Assembly: GCA_903938575.1 (NCBI GenBank)
Contig: CAJADV010000208.1
Location: 1-35,509 of the forward strand
Direction: 5' to 3'
DNA length: 35,509 nucleotides
Source of the DNA: an uncultured Gammaproteobacteria bacterium
Lineage (GTDB): Bacteria; Pseudomonadota; Gammaproteobacteria; Pseudomonadales; UBA5518
Positions 7,217 through 20,040 of this stretch are shown piece by piece. A program made the translations under genes and the position numbers. Below the pieces are notes generated by a model. It was not told the DNA's origin and did no database searches. It saw nothing but the letters and a program-made list of their open reading frames with translations. The stretch's first letter is position 1. Each line of letters opens with the position of its first letter.

Positions 7217-8107
7217 TCATCGGCGGAAGTAGCCGAGCAATCCGTCCAGCTGCTCGAGGCTCGCGTAGTCGATCACCAAGCGCCCCTTGCCACCCCGGCG
7301 GTGCTCGATGGAAACCGCCGCGCCGACGGTCTCCGACAGTTCCCGCTCGAGCTGGCGAACATCGGCGCCGTGCGGTGGGCTGGCGGGTTTTGGCGTGGCC
7401 GGCGCCAGCAGACGGCGCACCAGTGCCTCGGTCTCCCGCACCGAGAGTCCACGGGCGACAACCTCGCGGGCGGCCTCGGATTGCCGCTCTGCCGGCAGGC
7501 CGAGCAAGGCGCGGCCGTGGCCCATCTCGAGCTTCTTTTCCTCAAGCAGTTGGCGCACGTCGGCAGGCAGGCTGAGCAACCGCATGATGTTGGTAACGGT
7601 GGTGCGCGACTTTCCCACGGCTTCGGCAATGCGCTCGTGCGTCAACCCGAACTCCTGTTGCAGACGCGCGAGGGCGGCGGCCTCCTCAATGGCGTTCAGG
7701 TCGGCGCGCTGGATGTTTTCGATGAGTGCCATCGCGATGGCGGCCTCGTCGGGCACATCACGGATCACTGCCGGGATGTCCTGCATCCCCACCATCTGCG
7801 CGGCCCGCCAGCGACGCTCGCCGGCGATGATTTCGTAACGCCCTCCAGGAACAGGCCGTACGACGACCGGCTGGATCAGGCCCTGGGCGCGGATAGAGCT
7901 GGCAAGCTCTTCAAGGGATTCGGCATTGAAATCACGGCGCGGTTGGAAGCGTCCGCGCTGGAGCAGGTCTATGGGGAGCGTGCTTGGCGCCGGCGCGCTG
8001 GCCCCGGGCGTGGTCGCGCCGGAAGACGTGTCATCGGGGCGACCAAGCCCGGCGGCACCGATCAGGGCATCGAGTCCACGTCCGAGTCCGCGCTTCTTGA
8101 TCGACAT
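7217..8107 (-). CDS. parB: chromosome-partitioning protein ParB
   Basis: CTP-dependent DNA clamp that loads at parS and spreads over the origin region (296 aa). It starts MSIKKRGLGRGLDALIG, the N-terminal ParA-interacting motif. ParB box II appears as GERRWRAAQMVG. A helix-turn-helix parS-reading segment is at LTHERIAEAVGKSRTTVTN, and a C-terminal dimerisation domain ends in YFRR. The open frame runs 132 codons further upstream but that part is a parA shadow; the ATG at 8107 follows GGAGATTGCC. Begins 29 nt after parA. Its target is probably the two palindromes in recF. Confidence 0.97.
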   Translation of the reverse strand: MSIKKRGLGRGLDALIGAAGLGRPDDTSSGATTPGASAPAPSTLPIDLLQRGRFQPRRDFNAESLEELASSIRAQGLIQPVVVRPVPGGRYEIIAGERRWRAAQMVGMQDIPAVIRDVPDEAAIAMALIENIQRADLNAIEEAAALARLQQEFGLTHERIAEAVGKSRTTVTNIMRLLSLPADVRQLLEEKKLEMGHGRALLGLPAERQSEAAREVVARGLSVRETEALVRRLLAPATPKPASPPHGADVRQLERELSETVGAAVSIEHRRGGKGRLVIDYASLEQLDGLLGYFRR

Positions 8108-8136: not shown

Positions 8137-8946
8137 TCAATCCGATGGCGCGCTGCTTGGCGTGGGTATGGCGGCGACGGGGTTGCGGCCATGGCGACGC
8201 AGCATCTCTGAGGCCGCGGCAAGATAGGCAATCGCGCCACGCGATCCCGCGTCGTAGAAGAGCGCCGGTTTGCCGTGGGACGGTGCCTCGGCAAGGCGCA
8301 CGTTGCGGGGGATGAGCGTGGAGTACACGCGCGCCCCGAAGTGGCTGATCAGCTGCATCGACACATCGTTGCTCAGGCTGTTGCGGGCGTCGTACATGGT
8401 GCGAAGCAGACCCTCGATTTCGAGAGCCGGGTTCATGACCTTCTGTACCCGGGCGACGGTGCCAAGCAGCGATGAAAGCCCCTCCAGCGCGTAGTACTCG
8501 CACTGCACCGGGATCAGCACGCTGTCGGCGGCAACCAAGGCGTTAACGGTGAGCATGTTGAGTGAGGGCGGGCAGTCGATGAGTATGTAGTCGTACTCGT
8601 GTTTCACCCGCGCCAGGGCGTAACGCAAGCGGCTTTCCTTGGTGGTTGCCGTGACCAGTTCGACTTCGGCCGCTGTAAGGTCGTCATTGGCGGGCAGGCA
8701 GTCGAAGCCCGCTTCGCCGGCGCGTTGGCGCACGTCTTCAGCACGGGCGCCGTGCATCAGGATGTCGTAAACGGAGAGTTCGAGTGCGTGTTTGTCGACA
8801 CCACAGCCCATCGTCGCGTTGCCCTGCGGGTCGAGATCCACAAGCATTACGCGTTGCCGGTTGGCCGCAAGCGATGCTGCAAGATTGACGCAGCTCGTGG
8901 TCTTGCCGACGCCGCCTTTCTGGTTGGTGAGCGCGATGATGGTCAA
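8137..8946 (-). CDS. parA: chromosome-partitioning ATPase ParA (Soj type)
   Basis: Deviant-Walker ATPase that binds DNA non-specifically and drives segregation of ParB-parS complexes (269 aa). The deviant P-loop is KGGVGKTT at residues 10-17, with the signature Lys in KGG; the Walker A' acid region DLDPQGN is at 37-43, and Walker B appears as ILIDCPPSL. Translation appears to begin at a TTG at 8944-8946 whose last bases form the rsmG stop (TTGA overlap). A GCAGGACGG ribosome site precedes it. No ATG fits the conserved N-terminus [12 protein letters not shown]. Confidence 0.96.
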   Translation of the reverse strand: MTIIALTNQKGGVGKTTSCVNLAASLAANRQRVMLVDLDPQGNATMGCGVDKHALELSVYDILMHGARAEDVRQRAGEAGFDCLPANDDLTAAEVELVTATTKESRLRYALARVKHEYDYILIDCPPSLNMLTVNALVAADSVLIPVQCEYYALEGLSSLLGTVARVQKVMNPALEIEGLLRTMYDARNSLSNDVSMQLISHFGARVYSTLIPRNVRLAEAPSHGKPALFYDAGSRGAIAYLAAASEMLRRHGRNPVAAIPTPSSAPSD

Positions 8947-15833: not shown

Positions 15834-15863
15834 ATTCTAGTGAACTCGAAGGCTTAAGGTAAA
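15834..15863 (-). promoter_or_regulatory. candidate promoter of rpmH-rnpA operon
   Basis: On the minus strand: -35 TTTACC (15858-15863, 4/6), 18-bp spacer, -10 TAGAAT (15834-15839, 5/6). RNA would start near 15827, leaving a leader of about 50 nt before the rpmH ATG at 15778. Confidence 0.6.
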
Positions 15864-15994
15864 CCCGCCTGGTGCCCATGCCGGCGGGAATATTCCGGAC
15901 GCACGGTGAACAGGCCTGCCATCCCGGTCTCGTGCACGGCTCAAAGTCCCGCAAAGTGACCCGTGCAGGCTGAGCGGCTAGTCGCCTGGAAGAA

Positions 15995-16003
15995 TGTGGA
16001 AAA
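15995..16003 (-). promoter_or_regulatory. DnaA box (TTTTCCACA)
   Basis: TTTTCCACA on the minus strand, fitting the relaxed DnaA consensus TTWTNCACA. It is the rpmH-proximal box of the candidate origin. Confidence 0.6.
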
Positions 16004-16152
16004 CACCGGCAGGCTGTTGTTTGTCAAAGAAAAGCAGCTGTAGACATCCTGTGGGCCGGCAGGGATTAACTGTTAACGGGGAGCGCAGACCCTGAAAAGA
16101 CGGCAAAGGCGCGCACTGAAATCACACAGGAAACCCATAAGATATATACAGG

Positions 16153-16161
16153 TTATCCACA
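16153..16161 (+). promoter_or_regulatory. perfect DnaA box (TTATCCACA)
   Basis: Exact match to the high-affinity DnaA box TTATCCACA on the plus strand, on the rpmH side of the AT-rich tract. Confidence 0.8.
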
Positions 16162-16207
16162 GATAGGCGTGTTTAAGCGTTGTGACTCTGGTCGATTCAG
16201 CACGGCA

Positions 16208-16264
16208 TCAAGTTTTATAAAAGACAATAAAAACAATATGATACGGAATAATCAAAATTCTTTC
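16208..16264. other. AT-rich tract, candidate unwinding element
   Basis: About 57 bp strongly enriched in A and T (for example TTTTATAAAAGACAATAAAA and AATAATCAAAATTC) in an otherwise GC-rich window. It lies between the two perfect DnaA boxes, as expected for a DNA-unwinding element. Assignment is by composition and position only. Confidence 0.55.
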
Positions 16265-16272
16265 GCGGAGCG

Positions 16273-16281
16273 TGTGGATAA
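16273..16281 (-). promoter_or_regulatory. perfect DnaA box (TTATCCACA), minus
   Basis: Exact TTATCCACA on the minus strand (TGTGGATAA on plus), just dnaA-proximal of the AT-rich tract. It overlaps the -35 of the candidate dnaA promoter, suggesting autoregulation. Confidence 0.8.
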
Positions 16282-16303
16282 GCTCTGTGGACAAGGTTAG
16301 AAT
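16275..16303 (+). promoter_or_regulatory. candidate dnaA promoter under DnaA boxes
   Basis: -35 TGGATA (16275-16280, 4/6), 17-bp spacer, -10 TAGAAT (16298-16303, 5/6). RNA would start near 16310, about 90 nt before the dnaA ATG. One DnaA box covers the -35 and another (16286-16294) fills the spacer, so DnaA binding would block it. The match is moderate and other promoters may exist in the AT-rich tract. Confidence 0.45.
16286..16294 (-). promoter_or_regulatory. DnaA box (TTGTCCACA), one mismatch
   Basis: TTGTCCACA on the minus strand, one base from the perfect box, 4 bp beyond the box at 16273-16281 and in the same orientation. Such close tandem boxes favour cooperative DnaA binding (established for DnaA in general). 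Confidence 0.6.
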
Positions 16304-16401
16304 GGGGTCGTCCGGTTTTCCACGGGCCAAATCACCATAATTCGAATGCATTGACGCTGTTGTTCCAACGCGTCACCGGCGGGGTTTGAGGGCAACACCT
16401 A

Positions 16402-18939: not shown

Positions 18940-20040
18940 ATGTCGCTTCGGCGCCTCAGGATCCAGGAGCTTCGGAATATTCACGACGCAGAGCTCGATC
19001 TTGCGAGGGTGAATGTATTCGCAGGGGCCAACGGTAGTGGGAAGACGAGCATTCTGGAGGCGGTATACCTGCTGGGCTCGGGGCGCTCCTTCAGAAGCAG
19101 CAGGCTTGAGCCCGTTATCAACCATGAGGCGAGTGGTTGCGTCGTTCATGCCTTGGTGAGCGACGCGCAGCACGCGTCCCCGCTGTCTATCGGGGTTGCC
19201 AGGCGGCGAGACGGTGAGTTCGAGGGGCGGATTCAGGGAAGAACGGTTCAGAATACGGCTGAGCTGGCGCGTTGCCTTCCGGTTCAGCTCATAAACTCTG
19301 ATTCCTTTGACTTGCTTGAGGGGGGGCCCAAAAGCCGCAGGCAGTTTCTTGATTGGGGCGTGTTCCACGTGGAACAAGAGTTTCACGGAGTGTGGCTTGA
19401 CGTGCAGCGGGTTCTGCGTCAGCGCAACGCGTTGATTCGCCATGCTAGAATCGCGCCGGATCAGCTGGAGGCGTGGGATACGCGGCTTTCAGCCAGTGCT
19501 GAAAGGCTTGATGGGTTCCGCAGGCAGTATTTCGAGGCTTTTTATCCTCAGTTCACGGCCACGCTCGCTGATTTGGCCAATATTGAGGGAATCGAGCTTT
19601 CCTATCAGCGTGGTTGGGACAAGGAGCGCGGCCTGTTGGAGGTTCTGCGCGATCAGCACGATCGGGATCGTGAGAGAGGCTTCACGGTAAGTGGCCCCCA
19701 CCGCGCCGATATCCGGCTTCGTCTTCATGGGCAGAGCGCGGATGAAGTCCTTTCCAGGGGGCAGCAGAAATTGGTGGTCTGTGCCATGAAAGTGGCTCAG
19801 GCGAGGATTTTTACAGTCGCTCGCGGCCGGGCTTGCGTGTTTCTGGTAGACGATTTGCCGGCAGAGCTTGACCGCAAGCACCGACAGGCACTGTGTTCGT
19901 TGTTGAGTAGCCTGAACTGTCAGGTGATGGTGAGTTGCGTGGAGCGGTCCGATCTTGAGGACTGTTGGCCCTTGGTCCCGCCGGATGAGCTAAGGCTGTT
20001 CCACGTGGAACAAGGCCTGTCGGGCGGCACCGTGGTATGA
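18940..20040 (+). CDS. recF: DNA repair and gap-repair protein RecF
   Basis: SMC-like ATPase that, with RecO and RecR, directs RecA loading onto gapped DNA (366 aa; E. coli 357). Walker A GANGSGKT is at residues 29-36; the ABC signature appears as LSRGQQK, and Walker B as FLVDDLPAELD. The pentapeptide FHVEQ occurs twice (142-146 and 354-358) because each copy is encoded by a 16-bp parS palindrome. The second lies in the poorly conserved C-terminal tail. It starts 12 nt after dnaN with only a weak ribosome site, suggesting coupling. Confidence 0.98.
   Translation: MSLRRLRIQELRNIHDAELDLARVNVFAGANGSGKTSILEAVYLLGSGRSFRSSRLEPVINHEASGCVVHALVSDAQHASPLSIGVARRRDGEFEGRIQGRTVQNTAELARCLPVQLINSDSFDLLEGGPKSRRQFLDWGVFHVEQEFHGVWLDVQRVLRQRNALIRHARIAPDQLEAWDTRLSASAERLDGFRRQYFEAFYPQFTATLADLANIEGIELSYQRGWDKERGLLEVLRDQHDRDRERGFTVSGPHRADIRLRLHGQSADEVLSRGQQKLVVCAMKVAQARIFTVARGRACVFLVDDLPAELDRKHRQALCSLLSSLNCQVMVSCVERSDLEDCWPLVPPDELRLFHVEQGLSGGTVV
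19361..19376. promoter_or_regulatory. parS: parS site 1 (inside recF)
   Basis: TGTTCCACGTGGAACA, a perfect 16-bp palindrome with the core GTTCCACGTGGAAC described for Pseudomonas-type parS. It lies 3 kb from the candidate oriC, and a ParA/ParB pair is encoded in the window. It falls in codons 141-146 of recF (V-FHVEQ). Confidence 0.88.
19997..20012. promoter_or_regulatory. parS: parS site 2 (inside recF)
   Basis: Second exact copy of TGTTCCACGTGGAACA, 636 bp from the first and in the same reading phase of recF (codons 353-358, L-FHVEQ), near the recF 3' end. Identical 16-bp palindromes recurring within one gene are very unlikely by chance. Confidence 0.88.

Follow-up and report, generated by a model that had tools for sequence, protein, structure and literature searches.

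In Pseudomonas aeruginosa, the sites parS1 and parS2 lie within recF (PMC5521831, PMC3909081). ChIP-seq located ParB of this species at parS1 to parS4, of which parS2 and parS3 read TGTTCCACGTGGAACA (PMC5098823), and any one of the four sites is enough for segregation, as reported in work in which the intragenic sites were mutated without a change to the protein (PMC4368675). A location of parS in recF is thus no new idea, having been published for P. aeruginosa, and the locus described here is a further example. It lies in a stretch of uncultured gammaproteobacterial DNA of 35,509 nt, which was analyzed as a whole and is referred to here as the window. The recF gene of the window (18940..20040, plus strand) encodes a protein of 366 amino acids that matches TIGR00611 with 353 bits against a cutoff of 172, and it hosts two copies of TGTTCCACGTGGAACA, neither assigned to a strand. 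Site 1 (19361..19376) is a perfect palindrome and codes for V-F-H-V-E-Q, with FHVEQ as residues 142 to 146. Site 2 (19997..20012), close to the 3' end of recF, has the same sequence and codes for L-F-H-V-E-Q, with FHVEQ as residues 354 to 358. Translation places the start of both 16-mers at codon position 2, and the preliminary description, which had reported identical 16-mers in the same phase at these coordinates, both coding for FHVEQ, is exact on these points.

Both copies are 16-bp palindromes that fit TGTTCCACGTGGAACM and the parS-type 14-mer GTTYCACGTGRAAC exactly. Scanning the rest of the window for TGTTCCACGTGGAACA at up to 3 mismatches returned nothing beyond the two sites; 0.15 occurrences are expected by chance at this threshold, and none of the shuffled sequences reached 2. 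We also searched the assembly (4.36 Mb in 661 contigs, 97% complete), where we estimate that ~0.02 exact 14-mers would occur by chance at 62% G+C. Sites 1 and 2 are its sole matches to GTTYCACGTGRAAC, although with 661 contigs a further copy could be missing from it. The genome-wide palindrome search that the preliminary description had proposed as a check returned only the two recF copies, both near oriC, with no even spread over the assembly. The sole other sequences within 2 mismatches of the 16-mer, C122:64-79 and C365:63-78 of the same genome (G000), were set aside, being nonpalindromic and close to the ends of small contigs. These two contigs are of almost equal size and probably represent a repeat or a duplicated contig. 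An Rfam scan of the window gave no match, and the search for related loci comprised 7 loci.

The genes around recF are those of a partition locus beside a likely replication origin. As the preliminary description had placed them, at 7.2 to 8.9 kb, parB occupies 7217..8107 and parA 8137..8946, both on the minus strand. ParB starts with MSIKKRGLGRG and contains the motif GERRWRAAQ, and it aligns to Caulobacter ParB (6t1f) with an E value of 6e-56. Residues 173 and 201 of ParB have described roles in parS versus Noc specificity (PMC7383237), and in this alignment the window's protein carries the equivalents of R173 and G201, the parS-type pair, not the Noc-type Q173 and R201. At position 162 (Caulobacter numbering) it has His, where the ParB/Noc consensus is Gln; His also occurs there in four other sampled ParB proteins. 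ParA, a Walker-type partition ATPase, is matched by ParA-type models below their equivalog cutoffs, and its gene adjoins rsmG-mnmG, so that the order mnmE, mnmG, rsmG, parA, parB on one side faces dnaA, dnaN, recF, gyrB on the other. Because a motif scan found DnaA boxes at 15995 (minus strand), 16153 (plus strand), and 16273 (minus strand), we place the likely oriC in the rpmH-dnaA gap (15840..16401, approximate limits, no strand assigned), ~3.0 kb from site 1 and ~3.7 kb from site 2. The window thus has a pair of oriC-near sites within recF, as in Pseudomonas, together with a cognate ParA and ParB in the same genome.

To see how widely recF carries parS, we compared 214 recF genes, 125 from genomes of the same order and 89 from others of the class. 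The sequence GTTYCACGTGRAAC was found at both homologous positions in 162 of the 214 genes and at no fewer than one position in 197. The two parts of the sample behaved alike: both sites were parS in 96/125 genes of the order and 66/89 of the rest of the class, and at least one was parS in 114/125 and 83/89, respectively. When a single genome per family was kept (n = 132), 102 had both sites, 21 had one, and 9 had none, leaving 123 with at least one. Exactly two parS copies were present genome-wide in most of the 37 relatives sampled, the window's genome included. In 31 genomes that belong to the phylum but to other classes, a comparison of coordinates found no parS in recF among the matches listed. 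This depth of conservation across the class is the part that goes beyond the known P. aeruginosa finding; a literature search for the class-wide pattern found nothing beyond P. aeruginosa, although the pattern may have been described earlier. In one family (f12), some genomes (L104, L106, L064, and L067) have a further parS close to the 5' end of the recF reading frame; in L067 and L106, it precedes site 1 by ~430 bp. About a dozen genomes of the class had no RecF match; most of these retain ParB, so their centromere must be elsewhere. One sampled locus (L005, CAMAXE010000007.1) is titled as a Klebsiella pneumoniae metagenome-assembled genome; its RecF is 97% identical to that of the window, and it looks mislabeled.

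Codon use at the two sites is far more restricted than the encoded residues require. The preliminary description had called for a look at the FHVEQ codons across relatives: CAC-GTG-[G/A]AA is used in 359 of 369 FHV[E/K] stretches (97%), compared with 7 to 9% expected from codon use in the same genes. When 100 conserved recF columns were scored for codon bias, the top seven were all parS columns, with scores of 0.62 to 1.22 against a median of 0.04. The Phe codon moreover pairs with the residue that follows Val, TTC with Glu and TTT with Lys, giving arms of TTCC..GGAA or TTTC..GAAA. Counts of TTC-E, TTC-K, TTT-E, and TTT-K were 109, 3, 46, and 24 at site 1 (Fisher P = 7e-9) and 93, 7, 46, and 41 at site 2 (Fisher P = 3e-10), tests that overstate independence since the sampled genomes are related. 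The association persisted given third-position A+T and with one genome per family (P = 1e-5 and 5e-5), and clade-stratified shuffles gave P of ~0.002 or less at cuts of 0.6 and 0.65; the tightest clade cut, with few informative groups, gave P = 0.08 and 0.04. Perfectly palindromic arm states exceeded their expectation under independence, both C..G (198 versus 167) and T..A (61 versus 30). Upkeep of the palindrome demands matching arms and accounts for this covariation of TTC/TTT with Glu/Lys.

We then turned to genes in which a site is no longer parS. In parS-negative genes, the Val column had an entropy of 3.57 bits at site 1 and 1.88 bits at site 2, and the Glu column 2.64 and 2.94 bits, respectively; control columns of like conservation changed by no more than 0.66. 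The comparison with parS-positive genes is partly built in, as these must read FHV or FHM, and only the diversity within the parS-negative group is informative. Phe was kept without parS in 30/32 genes at site 1 and 20/23 at site 2, and His in 23/32 at site 1; that Phe mostly stays after site loss marks it as a constraint of the protein. The preliminary description had assigned site 2 to a tolerant C-terminal tail, and this holds in part: in the 23 genes that have lost site 2, His, Val, and Glu vary, but Phe stays in 20. Three Enterobacterales genomes (Erwinia, Tatumella, and Arsenophonus) had neither a ParB match nor a GTTYCACGTGRAAC site, in agreement with the published absence of par genes from Enterobacteriaceae (PMC3909081). 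In the RecF proteins of these three, the site 1 stretch is FHNE or FHNY and that of site 2 is F[T/S/C]V. Another genome (G174) has a weak ParB match without the parS-type residues, no parS, and alterations in both RecF stretches. Where a recF site is lost, parS is often found nearby outside recF. Several lineages without site 1 have one ~2.5 kb past recF, near the end of gyrB as expected from gene length, and G030, which like its family mates has lost both recF sites, carries two parS ~10 kb away. These two copies (L178, positions 4449 and 5335) lie in an RsmB-like open reading frame (16S rRNA methyltransferase) and in the gap before a TrkA-like one, both named by eye.

Three other explanations of the palindromes were weighed against this evidence. 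FHVE might be a functional RecF motif, with the parS-like DNA a by-product of protein conservation, and the persistence of Phe at both positions and of His at site 1 in genes without parS indicates that part of the motif is indeed protein constrained. Conservation of the protein, however, cannot explain why the codons are CAC, GTG, and GAA or AAA in nearly every case, leaves unaccounted for a silent Phe codon that predicts Glu or Lys, and does not fit the high diversity of Val and Glu once parS is gone. On codon use, covariation, and residue diversity after loss, we reject the pure protein-motif reading and regard it as highly improbable. It is also conceivable that the palindrome is read by a DNA-binding factor other than ParB, given that CACGTG is a generic palindromic core that other regulators can bind; but the 14-mer is the known parS, a parS-type ParB is encoded 11 kb away, and loss of ParB accompanies loss of the sites, so that we give this possibility next to no credence.

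The main role of the sites could instead be to let ParB control how the dnaA-dnaN-recF-gyrB operon is transcribed, and not segregation. Excess ParB in P. aeruginosa lowers expression of genes around parS1 to parS4, and an effect of the recF sites on the operon was suggested by the authors; at the native ParB level, however, only genes in the vicinity of parS3 and parS4, both intergenic, responded (PMC5521831). The sufficiency of a single one of these four sites for segregation (PMC4368675) likewise speaks against a mainly transcriptional role, and the frequent presence of parS nearby in lineages without the recF sites fits a centromere better. We consider operon control as the main function very unlikely.

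Sequence, place, cognate ParB type, and class-conserved positions all agree with the identification of the sites as parS made in the preliminary description, and we conclude that the two palindromes very probably make up the parS centromere of the bacterium's chromosome. By analogy with P. aeruginosa and with what is known of ParB biology, ParB from the parAB operon, ~11 kb away across oriC, would bind to both 16-mers, where it would load as a CTP-dependent clamp before spreading over the dnaA-dnaN-recF-gyrB region, while ParA would move newly copied origins apart. We infer that the recF pair is the primary ParB loading center here. Since recF codes for protein across both sites, selection to keep the palindrome would fix RecF codons and part of its residues, namely, Val and Glu at both sites and His at the second. 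The DNA-level conservation of the sites, independent of their coding role, supports this: codon bias, covariation, residue drift after loss, and site movement point to a palindrome selected as DNA that shapes RecF, and codon use, covariation, and the loss lineages bear out the earlier proposal that a segregation signal constrains the protein. For the class Gammaproteobacteria as a whole, recF was likely the ancestral carrier of the centromere, in which case the two RecF stretches would be the footprint of ParB sites and not of RecF function.

The core of the palindrome also varies in some genes. The arms are intact at both sites in 174 genes; of these, 6 had an off-core sequence at both sites, 3 at site 1 alone, and 3 at site 2 alone (P = 2e-7, uncorrected for relatedness). 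The same noncanonical core occurs at both sites in L236 (G213; CATATG), L074 (G151; CACATG), L164 (G091; CATGTG), and L008 (CACGTA). G213 has GTTTCATATGAAAC twice, with the palindrome kept, and its RecF reads FHMK at both places: a shift of the palindrome from TTC..GAA to TTT..AAA turns Glu into Lys, and its shift from CACGTG to CATATG turns Val into Met. Its ParB has SRSR (S170/R171) where GKSR is usual, and that of G151, with CACATG twice, has GLSR (L171). The shared core variants suggest an altered ParB specificity in these four lineages, and the ParB changes in G213 and G151 possibly match the palindrome shifts, which we offer as a lead.

Across the class, one gene appears to carry two messages, a repair protein and a centromere, and recF is thus a natural place for studying overlapping selection. 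The conserved FHVE residues call for caution against reading them as RecF function. Through the recF parS, the centromere can also be located simply in genomes of uncultured organisms, thousands of which are available, and lineages in which both sites have changed alike are ready-made cases of ParB-parS coevolution.

The known systems resemble this locus to different degrees. Vibrio cholerae chromosome I shares a gammaproteobacterial ParABS centromere with it but is a class exception, its parS lying 63 to 69 kb from oriC (PMC5098823) and not next to oriC in recF. The parS sites of alphaproteobacterial repABC replicons are likewise intragenic, and their upkeep by selection has been proposed (PMC9040568); unlike the window, these are plasmid replicons whose RepB is not a chromosomal ParB, with another parS consensus and no single conserved host gene. 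In Caulobacter, R173 and G201 of ParB contact parS (PMC7383237), as their equivalents in the window's protein may do, whereas the other-class genomes (n = 31) lacked parS in recF among the matches listed. P. aeruginosa differs in having two more high-affinity sites further on, parS3 and parS4, while the window's assembly has no other exact copy. It otherwise shows the same arrangement, with two ParB sites in recF, ~4 kb from oriC there, and parAB across oriC (PMC5098823, PMC5521831, PMC3909081); its parS1 differs from the window's sites at the last base, and its parS2 is identical to both of them at 16 of 16 positions.
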